Shown here: in pieces, positions 11,176 through 55,121 of the stretch
Numbering within the stretch: the stretch's first letter is position 1
Layout of the letters: the number at the start of each line of letters is the position of its first letter
Origin: Thioalkalivibrio sp. AKL19
GTDB taxonomy: Bacteria > Pseudomonadota > Gammaproteobacteria > Ectothiorhodospirales > Ectothiorhodospiraceae
Reading direction: 5' to 3'
DNA: 64,000 nucleotides
Assembly: GCF_000420165.1 (NCBI RefSeq)
Contig: NZ_ATUK01000010.1
Location: 62,001 to 126,000, forward strand
The notes under the pieces: generated by a model
What the model saw: the letters and a program-made list of their open reading frames with translations, nothing else
The model's database searches: none
Told to the model about the DNA's origin: nothing
Program-made: the position numbers and the translations under genes

Positions 11176-12066
11176 TCAGGAAGCGGGATCGGCGCGAAAA
11201 GCCCGCTCCAGTTCTTCCATCAGGGACTGGCTGGCCACGCCCGCGCGGTCGCGATCGGCATGGGCGATATGGAATGGCACCATGTGGCGTGCCCCGGCCT
11301 CGAGATTCAGTTCGACCAGGCGCGCGGCGGCAAGGTCCCCGGCAATGCGATCCTCCGGCACCCAGGCGAAGCCGATGCCCGAGCGCAGGATCTCGCAGGC
11401 CGTACCCATGTGCGAGACCGTCCAGCGCTGGTCGGCCTCCAGCCAGCCGCCCTCGCCGGAACCCTGGTCACCCGAATCGCGCACCACGACCTGGCGATGC
11501 GCCTGCAGGTCGCGCCGGGTCAGCGCCTTGCCCGCCTGCGCCAGGGGATGCGACGGATGCGCGACACAGACCATGGACAACTCGCCGAGGCAGCTCCCGA
11601 GATAGCCGGAGGGCAGTTCCGGCCCCAGCAGGATATCCACGGCCGCATCCCGCAACATGTCGGGCCCCCCGCTCAGCACCACCTCGTACAGCTGAATCCG
11701 GGTGGCCGGGTAGGCCCGCGAGAAGGCCTCCAGGGCCCCGATCACCGGTTCGCGGGGGAGGAGCTGGTCGACCGCCAGCCGGATCTCGGACTCCACTCCC
11801 GCCGCCAGTGCCTCGGCCAGGGTCTCGATCTCCGCCGCCTCTTCCAGCAAGTGCCCGGCCCGGCGCAGCAGCGCCTCGCCAGCGGGCGTAAGCACGGCCT
11901 TGCGCCCCTGCACCTGGAATACGTCCACGCCCAGCTGCTCTTCCAGTTTCTGCACCGCGTGGTTGATGCTCGACGGGCTCTTGTGCACCCGTTCCGCGGC
12001 GCGCGCAAAGCCGCCCGCCTCCACCACCGCCTGCAGCATCCGCCATTGTTCCAGGGTGACACGCAT
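11176..12066 (-). CDS. LysR family transcriptional regulator
   Basis: A 296-residue LysR protein: an N-terminal winged helix-turn-helix (FARAAERVHKSPSSINHAVQKLEEQLG, about 18-44) and a periplasmic-binding-protein-like effector domain from about 90. The ATG at 12066 is selected; the longer in-frame reading to 12264 would translate the inverted-repeat element at 12097-12186 and is rejected. The target is unknown. The downstream neighbour, 100 bases away on the same strand, is the osmolyte amidotransferase. Confidence 0.88.
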   Translation of the reverse strand: MRVTLEQWRMLQAVVEAGGFARAAERVHKSPSSINHAVQKLEEQLGVDVFQVQGRKAVLTPAGEALLRRAGHLLEEAAEIETLAEALAAGVESEIRLAVDQLLPREPVIGALEAFSRAYPATRIQLYEVVLSGGPDMLRDAAVDILLGPELPSGYLGSCLGELSMVCVAHPSHPLAQAGKALTRRDLQAHRQVVVRDSGDQGSGEGGWLEADQRWTVSHMGTACEILRSGIGFAWVPEDRIAGDLAAARLVELNLEAGARHMVPFHIAHADRDRAGVASQSLMEELERAFRADPAS

Positions 12067-12096: not shown

Positions 12097-12186
12097 AGGG
12101 AAACGCCGATTGATGTGCACGTTCGCGCCCGGTCCAGGAAAACAGGGAGCACCCACGCGAACGTGTACATTAATCAGTGTTTCCCT
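12097..12186. mobile_element. MITE-like inverted-repeat element, copy 1 (90 bp)
   Basis: The left end AGGGAAACGCCGATTGATGT and the right end, read in reverse complement, AGGGAAACACTGATTAATGT, form imperfect terminal repeats that continue inward as GCACGTTCGCG / CGCGAACGTGTAC. The whole element can fold into a near-complete hairpin. It is non-coding, and no target-site duplication is evident. It lies 31 bases before the LysR start and contributes the stop codon (TAA at 12172-12170) of the gene to its right. Confidence 0.75.
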
Positions 12187-12574
12187 GGTGCTCGTCCGGG
12201 CATCCACAACCCGGATTGTGGGCGCGGGCGTGCCACTCCTCGCGCAGGGAGGCATAGGCCGCACCGGTCAGCAGAACCAGGTGCACCGTGGAGGGATAGA
12301 TCCGGCCGTCCAGGCGCAGGGTCTCGGTCAGTTCGGGATCGCGGCCTTCGGGGATGTAGAAGAAATCCACCCCCTCGCGCAACTGATCCTTGCGCGCCTT
12401 GAACAGACGAAAGGCCGTGCCCTTGGGCACCCCGTTCCACTCATCGACCTGGCGCAGGCTCAGGGTCGCATAGCCGGCGTGGATAATCGGCTCCGGCACC
12501 GGACCGGCAGCGGAACCTTCGCGCCCGTGAAACCGTCCCGCACTACGGGGGTCTTCAACTGTATCGGTATCCAT
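12170..12574 (-). CDS. Protein of unknown function, possible DNA-binding
   Basis: A 134-residue protein that I do not recognise. The centre (DEWNGVPKGTAFRLFKARKD, then EGVDFFYIPEG) looks like a small helical nucleic-acid-binding module, followed by a hydrophobic stretch (TVHLVLLTGAAYASL). The tail has two Cys residues (CGCPDE). The ATG at 12574 is chosen over a GTG at 12589. Its last codons and stop lie inside the inverted-repeat element at 12097-12186, so the original C-terminus may have been altered by insertion. It is divergent from sohB with 53 bases between starts. Confidence 0.6.
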   Translation of the reverse strand: MDTDTVEDPRSAGRFHGREGSAAGPVPEPIIHAGYATLSLRQVDEWNGVPKGTAFRLFKARKDQLREGVDFFYIPEGRDPELTETLRLDGRIYPSTVHLVLLTGAAYASLREEWHARAHNPGCGCPDEHQGNTD

Positions 12575-12627
12575 GCTGGCATTATGCACGCACCGACTTC
12601 GAGCACCCCATCCAACCGGGACACGAA

Positions 12628-13728
12628 ATGGAATTTCTTCAGGAATACGGACTCTTCCTCGCCAAGGCCGCCACGGCCGTCATCGCGGCGCTCATCGTGT
12701 TGAGTGCAATCGGCGGCCTGGTCGCCCGCTCGCGCGAGCGCCGGCCGGACCGCCTGAACGTCAAGCGCCTGAACGATCGCTTCGAACGCATGGAAAAGAC
12801 CGTGCGGCGCGCGGTCGAACGCCGCCGCGGCCGCATCGAGCGCCTGCGGAACTGGACCGCGCGCAAGCTGGGACGCGCGAACGCCGCCCCGGGCACGGAG
12901 ACCCCCCAGGGCGCCACGTCCGGGGTCGGAGCGACCGGCGGCCCGGACGAGGCGCAATCTGACGACGGCACCACCGCCGAGCGCCCGCGCGTGTACGTCC
13001 TGCGCTTCGACGGCGACATCCGCGCGTCCAGCGTCGAGAGTCTGCGCGAGGAGGTCACCGCCATCCTCACCATGGCGCGCCCGGAGCAGGACCGCGCCAT
13101 CATCTGTCTGGAGAGCCCGGGCGGGCTGGTGCCCTCCTACGGGCTCGCGGCCGCCCAGCTGGCACGTCTGCGCGAGGGCGGACTGGACCTGACCGTGGCG
13201 GTGGATCGTGTCGCCGCCAGCGGCGGCTACATGATGGCGGCGGTCGGGCACCGCATCGTGGCGGCTCCGTTCGCGGTGCTCGGCTCCATCGGCGTGGTCG
13301 CGCAGATCCCCAACTTTCACCGCTGGTTGTCGCGCAACGACATCGACGTCGAGCTGCTGACCGCTGGCGAATACAAGCGCACCCTGACCATGCTGGGCGA
13401 GAACACCGACGAGGGCCGCAAGAAATTCCGCGAACAGCTGGAAGAGGCCCACGAGCTGTTCAAGACCTTTCTCGCCCGCTACCGCCCGCAACTGGACCTG
13501 GACCTGGTTGCCACCGGCGAACACTGGTACGGCGAACAGGCACGCGAGATGGGGCTGGCCGACGAACTCCGCACCAGCGACGACCTGCTGCTGGAGTTGA
13601 CCCGCGAGGCGGACGTCTTCGAACTGACCTATCACCGCCCGCAGACCCTGGGCCGGCGCATCACCTTCGCCATGGAGTCCATCCTCGAACGCGTCCTGCG
13701 CAGTCAGGGACCCGAGAGCCGGATGTAG
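12628..13728 (+). CDS. sohB: SohB-like S49 serine protease
   Basis: A 366-residue inner-membrane peptidase. An N-terminal transmembrane helix (about 12-33) precedes a charged Arg-rich region and the ClpP-like S49 domain. The serine nucleophile is Ser198 in DRVAASGGYMMA, and the general-base lysine is Lys250 in AGEYKRT, giving the Ser-Lys dyad of SppA/SohB. The region GSIGVVAQIPNF is also conserved. Length and single-domain layout fit SohB rather than full SppA. The ATG at 12628 is close to the divergent unknown gene. Confidence 0.9.
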   Translation: MEFLQEYGLFLAKAATAVIAALIVLSAIGGLVARSRERRPDRLNVKRLNDRFERMEKTVRRAVERRRGRIERLRNWTARKLGRANAAPGTETPQGATSGVGATGGPDEAQSDDGTTAERPRVYVLRFDGDIRASSVESLREEVTAILTMARPEQDRAIICLESPGGLVPSYGLAAAQLARLREGGLDLTVAVDRVAASGGYMMAAVGHRIVAAPFAVLGSIGVVAQIPNFHRWLSRNDIDVELLTAGEYKRTLTMLGENTDEGRKKFREQLEEAHELFKTFLARYRPQLDLDLVATGEHWYGEQAREMGLADELRTSDDLLLELTREADVFELTYHRPQTLGRRITFAMESILERVLRSQGPESRM

Positions 13729-13804
13729 AAACCGCGGCCAGAAGGAACGCTTCGGCACGGGAAAACGTCAACCTTTCACAAACCCATGCAACGAGGAGTC
13801 CCCG

Positions 13805-14308
13805 ATGAACCGGAACAATCACTCGCTAACCCGACTGCTGCTGATCCTGCTGGCCACCGCCAGCCTGCTGGCCGCACCCCTGCTCGCCGGGGCGGACGAC
13901 ACGATGCCGTGGGGCTCGGCCGAGAAGATGGACCGGCAATACGAGCCCCGCAAGGTGGTCTATGACGTCTACACCAGCAGCCCGCGCGAGCTGGAAATGG
14001 TGCTGGATCGCGTAAGCATGCTGAACAACGTCTACGAGGCCGACCCGTTCGAATCACATATCGTCATGGTGCTGCACGGGGCCGAGGTGCCGTATTTCAC
14101 CCGCGACGAATTCGACGAGCACGAAGAGCTGATGCGCCGGGCGCGCTCGCTGACCCAGGCCGGCAACATCGAATTCCGCATGTGCGAGGCCTCGGCCCGC
14201 CTGCGCGGCATCGAGCTGGACGACATCCACGGTTTCGTGAACGTCGTGCCCATGGCGGATGCCGAGATCATCGAACTCCAGCACGAGGGTTACCTCCTGA
14301 TGCAGTAA
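13805..14308 (+). CDS. Exported DsrE/DsrF-like protein
   Basis: A 167-residue protein with a clear signal peptide (hydrophobic 10-27, cleavage near GADD at 29-32) and a mature DsrE-like domain (VYDVYTSS, then LNNVYEADP, then VLHG). The conserved-type cysteine is Cys127 in EFRMCEAS, where DsrE-fold proteins carry a sulfur-binding cysteine. Cytoplasmic DsrE proteins shuttle sulfane sulfur; this one is exported, so its partner is probably periplasmic. ATG 13805 has GAGGAG about 9 bases upstream. It is followed by another exported protein (DUF302). Confidence 0.8.
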   Translation: MNRNNHSLTRLLLILLATASLLAAPLLAGADDTMPWGSAEKMDRQYEPRKVVYDVYTSSPRELEMVLDRVSMLNNVYEADPFESHIVMVLHGAEVPYFTRDEFDEHEELMRRARSLTQAGNIEFRMCEASARLRGIELDDIHGFVNVVPMADAEIIELQHEGYLLMQ

Positions 14309-14343
14309 GGCCGGCCCCTGCGCCTGCCATCCTTCCGCACCGC

Positions 14344-14391
14344 CGGACGCCGGAACATGTCTCTCCGCATCTCGGACATGGCCGGCGTCCG
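14344..14391. terminator. Strong intergenic hairpin between the DsrE-like and DUF302 genes
   Basis: CGGACGCCGG (14344-14353) plus CATGTC (14356-14361) pair with GACATG (14375-14380) plus CCGGCGTCCG (14382-14391), giving a 16-bp stem with a small bulge. No T-run follows, so it may be a weak terminator, an mRNA-stabilising hairpin or a small repeat. It lies 36 bases after the DsrE-like stop. Confidence 0.45.
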
Positions 14392-14575
14392 CCCATCCCC
14401 GCATGCTGGTCCCACTGTCCGGGCGGAGGGTCGACGTTCGCGAGCCCTGCAAGTTCTGCATCCATCGCCTACCTTCCGCGGCATGGGCACGCCGTTCGTG
14501 ATCCAGGCGCCTCGGGATCGGCGATGCCGATCCGTTCCCCGGCCACGTCAATCCACTCGAGACAAGGACACCGTC

Positions 14576-15040
14576 ATGAATAAGACACTACTCACTGCCC
14601 TGCTACCCCTGGCCCTGACCGCGACCCCGGCGCTGGCCGCCGACGTGCCCGGCATGATCGCCAAGGCCAGCCCGCATTCGGCCTCCGAGACCCTGGACCG
14701 GCTGGAGAACGCGCTCGAGGCCAACGATGTCGGTGTCGCCCTGCGCTGGGACCACGCCGCAAAGGCGGCGGACGTGGATATCGATCTTGGTCCCACCGAG
14801 TTGCTGTTGTTTGGCAATCCGGCGCTGGGCAGCCACATGTTCACCAGCCAGCAGACCGCCGGAATCGATCTCCCGATGAAGGCCCTGGCCTGGACCGACG
14901 CGGACGGCCAGACCTGGCTGGCCTACAACGACCCGGAATGGATGGCCAAGCGGCACGGGATCGAGGATCGCGACGACATCCTCGACACCATGAGCAACGC
15001 GTTGGACAACCTGACCAACGCGGCCATCGCCGAGGACTGA
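14576..15040 (+). CDS. Exported DUF302 protein
   Basis: A 154-residue protein with a signal peptide (MNKTLLTALLPLALTATPALA) and a DUF302 domain (SASETLDRLENALEANDVGVALRWDH, then LLLFGNPALGSHMF, then LPMKALAWTDADGQTWLAYNDP). DUF302 proteins are small, often periplasmic, and of unknown function; they occur in many sulfur oxidisers. ATG 14576 follows AAGGACACCGTC. Its neighbour upstream is an exported DsrE-like protein, and a joint role in periplasmic sulfur handling is a guess. Confidence 0.85.
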   Translation: MNKTLLTALLPLALTATPALAADVPGMIAKASPHSASETLDRLENALEANDVGVALRWDHAAKAADVDIDLGPTELLLFGNPALGSHMFTSQQTAGIDLPMKALAWTDADGQTWLAYNDPEWMAKRHGIEDRDDILDTMSNALDNLTNAAIAED

Positions 15041-15103
15041 GCCTTTCGCCGGGAACCCCGGGTCCCGGCGCCCTTGCCGCTCGCCCCGGGCGGGCGATTC
15101 GCT

Positions 15104-15286
15104 AGGTAAACATTGATTATTGATTAATGTACACACTCGCGTTGGCACCCCAGGGTCCCCGATTCTGTGTGGCGCCCCGAAGACATCAAAAACGGGCGGG
15201 AAGAACCACTGCCCGCTGCCAGAGGCGCCTTGTCTCGGAAAACCTGGGGTGCCAAGGCGAGCGTGTACATTAATGAGTGTTTCCCT
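15104..15286. mobile_element. MITE-like inverted-repeat element, copy 2 (183 bp)
   Basis: The left end AGGTAAACATTGATTATTGA and the right end, reverse-complemented, AGGGAAACACTCATTAATGT match copy 1. Here the repeats extend inward for about 50 bases and include TTGGCACCCCAGG on both sides. The core contains no convincing gene. It fills most of the space between the DUF302 gene and the GTG start of the RimB-like gene, so it lies in the latter's promoter region. Confidence 0.78.
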
Positions 15287-15319
15287 ATAGTGAGGCTTCC
15301 ACCCGCACCGGGAGCCGAC

Positions 15320-15823
15320 GTGGATCGCCCGTCCCCTTCCAGCCTCACCGCAGCCACCGCCGACCATCGGTCCGTCCTGGGCTGGCGCGAATGGGTCGGA
15401 CTCCCCGATCTCGGCATCTCCGCGATCAAGTGCAAGGTCGACACCGGCGCGCGCAGTTCCGCCCTGCACACCTTCCGGATCGATCCGTTTACCCGCGGCG
15501 GTCGCGAGTGGGTGCGCTTCGGTATCCACCCGCACCAGCACGATGCCGAGACCGAGGTCTGGTGCGAAGCGCCGGTACTGGACATCCGCAGCGTGACCGA
15601 CTCGGGCGGGCACACCGCCGAGCGCTACTTCATCGCCACCCGGGTACAACTCGGATCGATCATGCTGCCCGTTGAACTTTCCCTGACCAGCCGCGATACC
15701 ATGCTCTTCCGCATGCTGCTCGGCCGCGAGGCCATGCGGGGTCGCTTCCTGGTCGACCCGCAGGCCTCGTTCGTCGCCAGCCACCGTGCGCCCAACCCAA
15801 CAGCCCAGCAGGCGCCTGAATGA
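15320..15823 (+). CDS. ATP-dependent zinc protease family (RimB-like)
   Basis: A 167-residue retropepsin-like aspartic protease-family protein (Pfam Zn_protease family). The active-site-like segment [14 protein letters not shown] contains the DTGA motif of aspartic proteases, so the older 'zinc protease' name may be misleading. The GTG at 15320 has GGGAG five bases upstream; longer readings would translate the repeat element. It overlaps rimK by 4 bases (ATGA). In several bacteria rimB, rimK and related genes act together on glutamate-modified ribosomal protein S6; a similar pairing is inferred here. Confidence 0.82.
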
Positions 15824-16725
15824 AACTCGGCATCCTCTCGCGAAACAGCAAGCTATACTCCACCCGGCGCCTGGTCGAGGCCGCGGACCAGCGCGGCCAC
15901 GAGGTACGCGTGGTCGATCCGCTGCGCTGCTACATGAACATCACCGCCCACAGCCCGCAGATCCACTACAAGGGTGACATCCTCGACCAGTTCAACGCGG
16001 TCATCCCGCGCATCGGGGCATCGATCACGTTCTATGGCACGGCGGTGCTGCGCCAGTTCGAGATGATGAACGTCTATCCGCTGAACGAATCGGTCGGCAT
16101 TTCCCGCTCGCGCGACAAGCTGCGCAGCCTGCAGCTGCTGTCGCGCCGGGGCATCGGGCTGCCGGTCACCGGTTTTGCCCACTCGCCGGACGACATCGAC
16201 GACCTGCTGGCCACGGTGGGTGGCGCGCCCTGCGTGATCAAGCTGCTGGAGGGCACGCAGGGACTCGGCGTCGTCCTGGCGGAGACCAAGCAGGCGGCCG
16301 AGAGCGTGATCCAGGCCTTCATGGGCCTGAAACAGCACATCCTGGTGCAGGAATACATCAAGGAGGCCAAGGGCTCGGACATCCGCTGCTTCGTGATCGG
16401 CGACAAGGTCGTCGCCGCGATGAAGCGCCAGGCGAAGGAAGGTGAGTTTCGCTCCAACCTGCACCGCGGGGGCAGCGCCACGCTGTGCCGCATCACCCCG
16501 GAGGAGCGCGCCACCGCCGTGCGCGCGGCCAAGGTCATGGGCCTGAACGTCTGTGGCGTGGACCTGCTGCGCTCCAATCACGGTGCGGTGGTCATGGAGG
16601 TCAACTCCTCGCCCGGCCTGGAGGGCATCGAGAACGCCTCGGGCAAGGACGTCGCGGGCATGATCATTGAGTTCATCGAGAAGAACGGCAAGCCCAACCG
16701 GACCAAGACCAAAGGACGCGGCTAG
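15820..16725 (+). CDS. rimK: RimK-family ATP-grasp glutamate ligase
   Basis: A 301-residue ATP-grasp ligase matching RimK closely: [18 protein letters not shown] at the start, [42 protein letters not shown] and [13 protein letters not shown], which includes the magnesium-binding Glu and Asn. RimK adds glutamate residues to the C-terminus of ribosomal protein S6 and can make poly-glutamate. It is coupled to the RimB-like gene and followed after 40 bases by an M14 aminoacylase-type gene. Confidence 0.92.
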
Positions 16726-16765
16726 TGGGCTCTGAGCGTTACATTATTCACCGCAGGGGCTACTA

Positions 16766-17839
16766 GTGCCCGGCATACCGCGCGCGCTGCGCAACAAGCC
16801 GATCACGATCGGCGGCACCACGGTCCGTCCCGGCGAACGCCGCACGGTGGAGCTGGAACTGGGGGCGCTGTACACCCACACCCCCACCAATATGCCGGTT
16901 CAGGTACTGTGCGGCCGGCGCAAGGGGCCGGTCCTGTTCGTCAGTGCCGCCATCCACGGCGACGAGATCAACGGCGTCGAGATCATCCGCCGCCTACTCA
17001 AGGTGCCGGCGCTACGGCGCATGAAGGGCACCCTGCTCGCCGTGCCCGTGGTCAACATGCACGGCTTCATCAACCAGAGCCGCTACCTGCCCGACCGGCG
17101 CGACCTGAACCGCTGCTTTCCGGGATCGCAGAAGGGCTCGCTGGGCGCCCGGGTCGCGCGGCTGTTCATGCGCGAGATCGTCCAGCGCAGCACCCATGGC
17201 GTCGACCTGCATACCGGCGCCATCCACCGCTCCAACCTGCCGCAGATCCGCGCCAACCTCGATCACGGCGAAACTCTCGACCTGGCGCGCGCCTTCGGGG
17301 CTCCGGTCATCCTCAACTCCGCCCTGCGCGACGGCTCCCTGCGCGAGGCCGCCGCGGAACGCCAGATCCCGATCCTGCTCTACGAGGCCGGCGAGGCCCT
17401 GCGCTTCGACGAACTCTCCATCCGCGGCGGGGTACACGGCATCATCGAGGTGATGCGCCACCTGGAGATGCTGCCCGCCGTGCGCCGGCGACCGCGCAAG
17501 GAGCCCATCATGGCGCGCACCAGCGGCTGGGTACGGGCGCCGCAAAGCGGCATCCTGCGGACCTTCGTGCGCCAGGGCGACCGGGTTCTCCGCGACCAGA
17601 CCCGGCTCGCGATCGTCTCCGACCCCTTCGGCGAGACGGAGACCGAGATCCTGGCCCCCGCGTCCGGCATCATCATTGGCGAACTCAACCTGCCGCTGAT
17701 CAACGAGGGCGACGCCCTGTTCCACATCGCCCAGTTCAACCGCACCGATCTGGCCGTGGAACGGCTCGAGAGCTTCCAGGAAAACCTCGAGGCCAGCGAC
17801 TACCCCTACGCCGATCCGCCCCCGCGCGAAAGCCCCTGA
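16766..17839 (+). CDS. Succinylglutamate desuccinylase/aspartoacylase family hydrolase
   Basis: A 357-residue zinc-dependent M14-like hydrolase. The zinc ligands are visible as His64 and Glu67 in AAIHGDEING and His149 in VDLHTGAIH. A C-terminal beta-barrel/biotinyl-like region (SGWVRAPQSGILRTFVRQGDRVLRDQ) follows from about residue 255, as in AstE-like proteins of this subgroup. The GTG at 16766 has AGGGG upstream. Its position behind rimK and the RimB-like gene suggests it acts on an acylated or glutamylated product of that pathway; the substrate is not known. Confidence 0.85.
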   Translation: MPGIPRALRNKPITIGGTTVRPGERRTVELELGALYTHTPTNMPVQVLCGRRKGPVLFVSAAIHGDEINGVEIIRRLLKVPALRRMKGTLLAVPVVNMHGFINQSRYLPDRRDLNRCFPGSQKGSLGARVARLFMREIVQRSTHGVDLHTGAIHRSNLPQIRANLDHGETLDLARAFGAPVILNSALRDGSLREAAAERQIPILLYEAGEALRFDELSIRGGVHGIIEVMRHLEMLPAVRRRPRKEPIMARTSGWVRAPQSGILRTFVRQGDRVLRDQTRLAIVSDPFGETETEILAPASGIIIGELNLPLINEGDALFHIAQFNRTDLAVERLESFQENLEASDYPYADPPPRESP

Positions 17840-17890
17840 TCCCATCGCCTGGATCTTCGAGCGACAGGCCGCGCAGCCCGGAAACATCCC

Positions 17891-18337
17891 TCAGTGGCCG
17901 ATATCCTCCTGCCACAATTCGGGGTGCACCTCGATAAACGACCGCATCAGTTCGCGACAGCCCGGATCCTGCACTACATCCACCTGGATGCCGTGCCCGC
18001 GCAGCCACTCCTCCTCGCCCCGAAAGGACTCGTTCTCCCCGATCACCACTCGCGGAATGCCGTAGAGGACGATCGCGCCGCTACACATCGCGCAGGGCGA
18101 GAGCGTGGTGTAGAGCGTGCATTCGCGATACACCTGCGCCGGCTGGCGCCCGGCACGCTCCAGGGCATCCATTTCCGCATGCAGGATCGCGCTGCCCTGT
18201 TGCACCCGCCGGTTGTGCCCGCGACCGAGCACCTCGCCCCGGTGTACCAGCACCGACCCAATCGGGATACCGGCCTCGCCCCGACCCTCGCGCGCCTCGT
18301 CCAGCGCCATCTCCAGAAACGGATCCATCGTCGTCAT
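17891..18337 (-). CDS. Zinc-dependent nucleoside/cytosine deaminase family protein
   Basis: A 148-residue cytidine-deaminase-superfamily enzyme. The zinc site is readable: His53-Ala-Glu55 and the PCAMC pair Cys82 and Cys85. The overall sequence (FLEMALDEAREG, IPIGSVLV, GHNRRVQQGSAILHAEMDAL, C-terminal VEVHPELWQEDIGH) resembles yeast-type cytosine deaminase and related purine/pyrimidine deaminases; the exact base is not decided. ATG 18337 has GGAG seven bases upstream. It is convergent with the M14 hydrolase gene, with 51 bases between them. Confidence 0.85.
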   Translation of the reverse strand: MTTMDPFLEMALDEAREGRGEAGIPIGSVLVHRGEVLGRGHNRRVQQGSAILHAEMDALERAGRQPAQVYRECTLYTTLSPCAMCSGAIVLYGIPRVVIGENESFRGEEEWLRGHGIQVDVVQDPGCRELMRSFIEVHPELWQEDIGH

Positions 18338-18434
18338 GCACTCGCTCCGGTTCACCTGTTTGCCGGAGACAGTAGCCGAATCCGCGCTCCCCGGGCGACC
18401 CCGCATGGTCGACCGCCTGGCATTCGGGGGCCAC

Positions 18435-18908
18435 TCAAACGTGGGCGCTGAACTCGCCGCGCCGGGGCCGGCCGAGGAGATACAGGAAGTCCGCCTCGCG
18501 CAAGTGGACGAGCGATTCGTGATCGCCGGCCTCGAAGTACACGTCGCGCTGCTGCAGCAGGCTGTCGTCCACCAGGGTCTCCAGCCCGAATGCGGGGCCC
18601 AGCGCGGGGATCGCACCCCGCTCGCAGTCAGCAAACACGTGGGCCACCTCGTCCTCGGTGGCCAGGCCTACGTGCTCGCCCAGCAGCCGGTGCAACTGGC
18701 CCAGCTTCACGCGGCGGGTCGCGGGCACGATGGCAAGGCGGTACTGCCCGTCCTCCTCGACCAGCAGGACCGCCTTGGCCACGGCGTCACCCGGCACGTG
18801 GGCCGCCTCGGCCGTGCGGCTGGCCGAATCGGAATGCGGGTGGTGCACCAGCTGGTAGGTCACCGCGTGCTCGTCGAGGAAGTCATTCAGGGTCCTGGAA
18901 ATACTCAT
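18435..18908 (-). CDS. YbaK/EbsC-family aminoacyl-tRNA deacylase
   Basis: A 157-residue protein of the YbaK/ProX fold: HPHSDSASRTAEAAHVPGDAVAKAVLL contains the lysine typical of the family, and CERGAIPALGPAFGLETLVD is the second conserved block. Such proteins hydrolyse misacylated tRNAs. The ATG at 18908 is preceded by GGGAGGG. The inverted-repeat element at 18924 begins 16 bases upstream of the start, overlapping the expected promoter region. Confidence 0.85.
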   Translation of the reverse strand: MSISRTLNDFLDEHAVTYQLVHHPHSDSASRTAEAAHVPGDAVAKAVLLVEEDGQYRLAIVPATRRVKLGQLHRLLGEHVGLATEDEVAHVFADCERGAIPALGPAFGLETLVDDSLLQQRDVYFEAGDHESLVHLREADFLYLLGRPRRGEFSAHV

Positions 18909-18923
18909 TGCGCGCCCTCCCAC

Positions 18924-19221
18924 AGGGAAACACGGATCAACGTACGCACTCGCGTTCGAGTCGCGTTTGCGCGCGAGCCAGGCGCTTTGAGCGCCGTGCA
19001 GTCACGCGGCACAAGGAAGCCGCCACGCCATGTGCGCGCCCGCTCTCATCACACAACGGGCGACCGAGCCCTCTCGGGCTTGGTATCCCGGGTTTCCCGA
19101 TCCCGCGTTACGTCCCGAATCCGTCAAAACAGGCCGTAGAACCGCTACCGGCGGCGGATCCCGCCTGGGCCCGGGAAACCTGGCATACCACCGCAGGCGC
19201 CTAATTGATCCGGGTTTCCCT
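18924..19221. mobile_element. MITE-like inverted-repeat element, copy 3 (298 bp, nested palindromes)
   Basis: The left end AGGGAAACACGGATCAACGT and the right end, reverse-complemented, AGGGAAACCCGGATCAATTA are terminal inverted repeats. Inside, TTGGTATCCCGGGTTTCCC (about 19079-19098) pairs with CCCGGGAAACCTGGCATACCA (about 19170-19190), a second nested inverted repeat. No coding gene is convincing. The element fills the spacer between divergent genes (YbaK-like and luciferase-like) and so sits in both promoter regions. Confidence 0.65.
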
Positions 19222-54663: not shown

Positions 54664-54688
54664 CGCATGCATTAGTCAGTGTTTCCCT
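54664..54688. mobile_element. Solo end of the MITE-like element family
   Basis: In reverse complement, AGGGAAACACTGACTAATGC is nearly identical to the ends of the full elements at 12.1, 15.2 and 19.0 kb. No second end is found within 500 bases. It abuts the stop of the trxC-like gene (TAG at 54689-54687), so it may be a remnant, or a family of single-ended repeats. Confidence 0.6.
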
Positions 54689-55121
54689 ACATCTGCCCCC
54701 GCGTCCAGCGCACGATGTCGGCGGCGCCCATGGCGCCTGCCTGGCGCGCGACCTCGTGACCCCCGCGAAACAGTGCCAGCGTCGGGATACTGCGAATGCC
54801 GAACTGCTGCCCAAGACCGGGCTCCGCTTCGGTATTGACCTTGGCGAGCCGCACGGCCGGCTCCAGATCCTCCGCCGCCTGCCGGAACTGCGGGGCCATC
54901 ATCTTGCAGGGGCCACACCACGGCGCCCAGAAATCCACCAGCAACGGGATATCGTTGCGTTCCAGATGCCGGCGAACGTTCGCGGCGGTCAGCTCCAGCG
55001 GCTCCCCGGCGAACACCGACCGATGGCACTGGCCGCACTTCGGTCCGGCCCCCAGGCGGGCGGAAGGGATTCGATTCACCGCATCGCAGTGCGGACAGAC
55101 CACATGCAGGGCTTCACTCAC
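54687..55121 (-). CDS. trxC: Thioredoxin 2
   Basis: A 144-residue TrxC-type protein. The N-terminal zinc-binding domain has Cys9, Cys12 (VCPHCD) and Cys29, Cys32 (KCGQC); the thioredoxin domain carries WCGPC (Cys69, Cys72) and the cis-proline segment RSIPTLALF. TrxC reduces protein disulfides and is often induced by oxidative stress. The GTG start at 55121 has GAGG upstream. It converges on the zinc-ribbon gene and shares its strand with the JmjC-like gene 75 bases upstream. Confidence 0.9.
   Translation of the reverse strand: MSEALHVVCPHCDAVNRIPSARLGAGPKCGQCHRSVFAGEPLELTAANVRRHLERNDIPLLVDFWAPWCGPCKMMAPQFRQAAEDLEPAVRLAKVNTEAEPGLGQQFGIRSIPTLALFRGGHEVARQAGAMGAADIVRWTRGQM

Follow-up and report, generated by a model that had tools for sequence, protein, structure and literature searches.

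Background

MITEs are for the most part viewed as decayed hairpins. Among the described systems closest to the one reported here are the ERIC (or IRU) elements of the Enterobacteriaceae, which are 127 bp long with TA at their ends, and the Correia/NEMIS elements of Neisseria, for which we know of no two-module architecture. An orientation-dependent effect of ERIC on upstream transcripts is described in PMC2229807 (citing De Gregorio 2005), and the same article puts forward an action of Correia/NEMIS transcripts on adjacent mRNA via RNase III. REP/REPIN repeats are reported from other Thioalkalivibrio strains in PMC3733652, PMC3116915 and PMC2817692.

Here we describe an element family found in a window of 64,000 nucleotides (G000:C10:62001-126000) from the 2.88-Mb genome of Thioalkalivibrio sp. 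AKL19, in which an initial annotation had marked three full copies of a non-coding inverted-repeat element and a solo end. MITEs as such are already known; the present family, of the IS5 type, is unusual in its conserved interior, which folds as two modules. We found no earlier account of the family in the literature searched, which left most subscription journals outside its coverage, so that its novelty is unproven; the portions available of PMC3733652, PMC3116915, PMC2817692, PMC10969869, PMC2229807, PMC3368412 and PMC5345834 do not describe it.

Results

The end sequence that the initial annotation proposed as a search probe proved to be widely repeated, with 77 matches at up to 3 mismatches in the whole genome and 0 for the reversed control pattern. 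A looser end rule applied to the same genome yielded 35 paired elements of 90-317 bp together with 13 unpaired ends, several of which, that of 18924-19221 among them, have a decayed partner. BLAST searches with one full copy recovered the family in 16 of the 30 Thioalkalivibrio genomes searched, at 39-69 matches per genome in 15 of these carriers and 14 in the remaining one. Against named genomes a 24-base end pattern returned at least 106 stretches, and among the matches listed every title is Thioalkalivibrio; at up to 1 mismatch the end pattern occurs in 2 of 369 genomes of the class, again both Thioalkalivibrio. When 47 genomes of the order were searched with a model of the modules described below (R1), 18 had matches: 16 of these have at least 10 each, while those in G018 (1) and in G406 of another genus (2) are weak (E above 1e-4). 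No match to the element was found in plasmids, phages or one viral-contig pattern scan. The family is a MITE that is known to our searches only from Thioalkalivibrio, a genus of soda-lake bacteria.

The interior of the element consists of two homologous hairpin modules facing each other within a long outer stem, module A on the top strand and module B on the bottom strand. Twenty A cores taken from the top strand and 19 B cores from the bottom strand align with 13 invariant columns (alignment A1, 39 of 48 module sequences), and the two arms are therefore homologous and inverted. We assembled 168 distinct copies (62-317 bp among those with lengths reported), 154 of which carry A on top and B on the bottom, 6 B only, 3 A only and 4 neither; the remaining one in this tally is the window copy at 18924-19221, which has both modules. 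Of these copies 153 measure at least 260 bp and make up the 153-row alignment, from which the other 15, all shorter than 255 bp, are excluded. In L073:14282-14565, which stands outside the set of 168 (one end is decayed), arm A is inverted in place, which gives both modules the same sense strand. Ends of a second class diverge beyond base 14 and are nearly symmetric within a copy: over end positions 15-31 the mean difference is 1.45 between the ends of one copy as against 3.27 between copies (170 copies). This class, which reads AGGGAGACRCTGAT followed by AATCGCACG-like sequence, is seen in L251:1247-1560, L252:1252-1550 and L282:149-462, symmetric within each copy. To the right of position 1501 in L003 (G000:C10 near 175,000) a copy is interrupted by a different repeat, present twice in tandem in slightly differing form (GACGGGGTCGGACCA...).

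The copy interiors align as a non-coding fold. The fold of one full copy reaches -180 kcal/mol for the top strand (z -13.5) and -174.5 kcal/mol for the bottom strand (z -11.2), with 0 of 200 shuffles as good. The pair sets used for counting were derived from the fold of a single copy, because the RNAalifold consensus on the 153-row alignment was poor. Across 44 copies and 101 pairs (alignment A2, 44 of 45 copies, with the window copy at 18924-19221 left out), 94.8% of the cells are paired as against 32.8-45.1% when the pairing is slid, and 38 of the 101 pairs, spread over 7 of 11 helices, have changed on both sides; 0 of 500 shuffles scored as high on any of five measures. On a FastTree tree of 153 copies, parsimony counts 110 same-branch double Watson-Crick changes at 93 pairs, compared with 0-4 when partners are shifted by 1-4 columns and a mean of 2.9 (maximum 18) over 100 random pairings, parsimony on such short and possibly recombining sequences being rough. 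The pairing of the modules is kept by compensatory change. Rfam 15 has 0 matches at gathering score in the window, and only 4 for one full copy, all below gathering (E 0.7-5.8); scans for promoters and terminators gave no hit in one full copy.

The wobble pattern of the module cores is strand-specific and opposite in A and B. In the A core, 18 changes away from Watson-Crick pairs lead to GU and 4 to AC, with 44 and 0 back; in the B core 9 lead to GU and 31 to AC, with 0 and 54 back, which amounts to G-T on the other strand. GU and AC changes are balanced in the end repeats (32 and 43) and in the arm stems alone (A 42:38, B 21:26). Folding energies show the same division of strands: for A the top strand gives the better fold in 149 of 153 copies, by a mean of 9.6 kcal/mol, and for B the bottom strand does so in 129 of the 153, by a mean of 4.9 kcal/mol. 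Arm B also has a competing fold on the top strand, with 395 GU to 13 AC cells, in which several wobble pairs hardly vary and two do, and the assignment of B to the bottom strand is therefore weaker than that of A to the top.

The initial annotation saw no target-site duplication, but empty sites in relatives reveal one of TA. The flanks read CT/A...T/AG; the A that opens and the T that closes the end as annotated are part of the duplication, which was overlooked because its A resembles the first base of the repeat. Thus the window reads CGC-TA-[element]-TA-TAGTG at 15104-15286 where the empty site of G010 reads CGCTATAGTG; likewise, the copy L073:2292-2574 in G008 reads ATCC-TA-[element]-TA-CTG, whereas G013 is empty and reads ATCTTAGTG, and G014 is empty as well. 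Joined-flank matches were recovered for 43 of the 168 copies, many of them diverged or gapped and only a handful clean. In the flanks of all 168 copies C occupies position -2 in 120, T position -1 in 110, A position +1 in 115 and G position +2 in 114, and TA is present on both sides in 74. A 4-bp duplication of the form YTAR was considered and rejected, since a base-by-base reading of the two empty sites agrees with TA instead. The left and right 4-mers are identical in 49 of the 74 copies with TA on both sides, but in the commonest 4-mer pairs a right-hand CTAA (22 copies) stands opposite a left-hand CTAG, TTAG or CCAG, and the 4-mer patterns of two of the 168 copies leave some doubt between TA and YTAR. 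The element inserts at TA within a CTAG-like target, duplicating the TA. A few sites are common to different species; 149 copies fall into 121 site clusters, and the family is almost certainly mobile. Copies positionally conserved in relatives, which like unrepeated ends the initial annotation had named as evidence against its reading, are not what we see: sites differ between relatives. At 27 of 141 gene ends facing an element the insertion lies in a TAG stop codon and rebuilds it, which is suggestive at most, because the CTAG junction by its own sequence supplies a stop codon to one of the frames.

A transposase with matching ends, whose existence the initial annotation had raised as a question, is present in this genome. 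A looser end search detected an inverted pair of ends 1192 bp apart on contig C11 (202923-204114; L241:1924-3115), between which lies a gene for a 342-aa IS5-family transposase (L241:2071-3099; NF033581, E 1.8e-91). Each end of this resident element is 2 mismatches from the 19-base end consensus and also lies beside TA; the MITE and the IS have their ends in common and not their interior. The IS5 transposase was found in 8 of 30 genomes, namely G000, G005 (3 strong copies), G006, G009, G011 (2), G001, G010 and G029, the match in G001 being a fragment and those in G010 and G029 weak; in several copy-rich genomes among the 30 searched none was found. Both ends are present in inverted orientation at six IS loci (L261, L262, L265, L269, L270 and L274), and a T before both ends gives TA flanks in five of the six, L265 being the one without. 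The ends and machinery of the MITE are very probably of the IS5 type, and the resident transposase or a close relative may mobilise it in trans. The initial annotation had wavered between a MITE and a large REP/BIME family. Inverted ends, an interior without a transposase gene, TA duplication at empty sites and an IS5-family element with matching ends identify it as the former; the latter is defined by a repeated palindrome of 20-40 bp, while the unit here is a two-module element of 260-319 bp, and 153 of 168 copies measure at least 260 bp. In G005 one copy of the element directly adjoins an IS5 copy, end against end (L274:1036-2553).

Within the window, the ends at 12165-12186, 15265-15286, 18924-18945 and 54667-54688 have 0, 1, 3 and 3 mismatches to AGGGAAACACTGATTAATGTAC, respectively, where 0 matches are expected from 100 shuffles, and the opposite ends at 12097 and 19221 have one mismatch over the first 10 bases of the end. 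The annotated picture of repeated elements with inverted ends thus stands, end matches in window and genome being far above controls, and its details are corrected as follows. Of the supposed three full copies only that at 18924-19221 is full-length, though decayed; the one at 12097-12186 has neither module and the one at 15104-15286 has module A only. These two, at 90 and 183 bp, are internal deletions of the ~260-319-bp element, and the cores, which had been taken to differ, are deletion states of one core and not different kinds.

The 90-bp copy (12097-12186, - strand) retains two ends without modules, a module search giving 0 matches, and is flanked on one side by the gene of a LysR-type regulator (Pfam), which starts near 12066 on the - strand, and on the other by an ORF at 12170-12589 (- strand). 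At the same site G012 and G029 carry copies of ~300 bp with an identical right-hand junction. The 3' end of the ORF 12170-12589 reaches into the element, with its TAA stop (12170-12172) inside the end repeat. The one-armed 183-bp copy (15104-15286, - strand) has two ends plus module A, whose sense strand is the - strand. Its neighbours, a DUF302 gene and one for a putative ATP-dependent zinc protease (Pfam), both read on the + strand, and the copy is thus oriented against the bias of the family relative to genes. The two TAs of its target duplication are at 15103-15104 and 15286-15287, and its junction at 15286 is common to G006, where ~40 bases of the right end remain. The right TA also forms the first two bases of the TATAGT box of a possible hybrid promoter on the + strand (15264-15291), in which the element end would supply TGTACA and the host, after 16 bases, TATAGT; in a consensus scan of this window stretch such promoter-like sites were not above chance (1 found, 0.9 expected in shuffles). 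The full-length copy (18924-19221, - strand, 298 bp), with B on the + and A on the - strand, separates divergent genes for an aminoacyl-tRNA editing domain protein (-) and a luciferase-like monooxygenase (+) (Pfam); G007, G010, G012 and G029 have no copy at this site and G006 has a remnant of ~25 bases. The annotated solo end at 54664-54688 (- strand) is indeed a lone end without modules, with TA beside it at 54688-54689. A thioredoxin ORF (54687-55121, - strand) stops at this lone end, its TAG (54687-54689) being made up of TA and the first G of the end. The placement of the window copies beside gene ends or in promoter regions was correctly annotated. Elsewhere in the window, ~40 intergenic bases at 16728-16766 are absent from the alignments of G006, G012 and G029 and match elsewhere in G012, and are perhaps another small repeat.

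Gene context was obtained by calling genes in the flanks only, from frame-specific G+C content; 19 of the 168 copies were too near a contig edge for this, which left 149. Where the two flanking genes are co-directional, some three to four sites in five have the A strand as coding strand: among the 121 site clusters it is coding at 57 and not coding at 18 (p 7e-6), the other clusters being divergent (27), convergent (18) or uncalled (1). Stricter gene calls give 41:13, 32:9 and 19:4 with versus against the genes (84, 62 and 35 clusters), our looser first gene-calling rules gave 76 to 17, and a count by element gives 15:5 for this genome and 50:11 for the remaining ones. A Pfam family was found on the called strand for 19 of 20 upstream genes tested. 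The mix of 75 co-directional, 27 divergent and 18 convergent sites is similar to that of element-free gaps (244, 89 and 75), and the bias therefore concerns orientation and not the kind of site. Along a contig of G005, 7 copies on the + strand are interleaved with 7 on the - strand, so that no replichore-wide orientation shows, on a rough count covering 14 of 52 matches.

Discussion

The above observations are best explained by an IS5-family MITE with modules that are preserved as single-stranded structures, most probably of RNA, and with an orientation that tends to follow gene direction, a reading that we regard as probable. We likewise think it likely that selection acts on single-stranded folds, and, going by the sequence patterns, the folded molecule seems somewhat more probably RNA than DNA. 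An IS5-type transposase would move the element in trans into the TA of a CTAG-like target, and the modules would be kept for single-strand folding, most probably in the RNA made when a neighbouring gene is transcribed through them. With the modules opposed, transcription from either side would yield one module in its own sense, and the orientation that prevails could be the one that affects the transcript usefully, or harms it least, in the manner reported for ERIC elements. Internal deletions would strip one or both modules, giving rise to short copies such as those of the window. More tentatively, the element might be a two-way mobile RNA cassette, in which the face-to-face modules are each selected as RNA on their own strand, so that, wherever an IS5 transposase inserts it, one functional module is added to the transcript of either neighbour, with A favoured behind same-direction genes; the module gained could be, for example, a binding site for a host protein or a protector of the mRNA end.

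Events at the DNA level may conceivably account for the whole pattern: in this rather doubtful scenario an ordinary MITE arose by inverted duplication, and its arms were matched by template switching or conversion in replication hairpins, without selection on the fold. The end repeats do show 61 double changes with no clear strand preference (the 32 GU and 43 AC changes given above), and arms have been deleted or, in L073:14282-14565, inverted in place; however, the opposite strand asymmetry of the cores is unexpected from a strand-symmetric process, and the orientation bias relative to genes also speaks against it. That asymmetry fits RNA and single-stranded DNA alike, as G-T pairs are also tolerated in folded DNA, and hairpins might accordingly be recognised on a displaced DNA strand, for instance during replication or transposition. 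This predicts an orientation tied to replication, whereas the 14 of 52 matches placed in G005 are, on a rough count, evenly divided and interleaved and orientation follows gene direction, which makes it unlikely that the folds act as DNA.

A conserved regulatory RNA with unchanging genomic positions would account for the strong fold and the covariation, and a few sites are common to species, but the empty TA sites in relatives and the dispersal of 149 copies over 121 site clusters largely refute it and leave it very improbable. We give as little credence to an origin from IS630/Tc1, the family best known for TA duplications, which we had at first favoured for the TA and the CTAG target; the DDE_3 transposase has 0 matches in this genome (G000) and matches in 6 of 30 genomes of the genus, 4 of them over the cut-off, and the matching ends are carried by an IS5-family element instead. 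The copy number, the paired changes, the opposite strand signatures and the orientation bias make maintenance of a bacterial MITE as a functional RNA directly testable, with hundreds of natural variants at hand in one-armed, arm-inverted and empty-site versions.

Like the Thioalkalivibrio element, REP/REPIN repeats are intergenic, inverted and present in high copy number, but they are GTAG- or CGTC-tagged palindromes of 20-40 bp tied to RAYT proteins, whereas the element described here far exceeds that length and inserts at a TA target of the IS5 type. The Correia/NEMIS elements are likewise structured MITEs, but measure 105-155 bp and differ in host and sequence. ERIC resembles our element in being an intergenic, MITE-like element with a strong hairpin; it forms one long hairpin, in contrast to the two homologous opposed modules within ~260-319 bp, the matching IS5 ends and the absence of an Rfam match seen here, and its orientation effect is one on mRNA, where in Thioalkalivibrio we have an orientation bias in the sequence. 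MITEs from IS5-family and other insertion sequences, as described in PMC10969869, likewise have inverted ends matching a resident IS, no transposase and stable folds; compared with that account, the Thioalkalivibrio element is set apart by an interior unrelated to the IS, by module signatures on opposite strands and by documented compensatory change.
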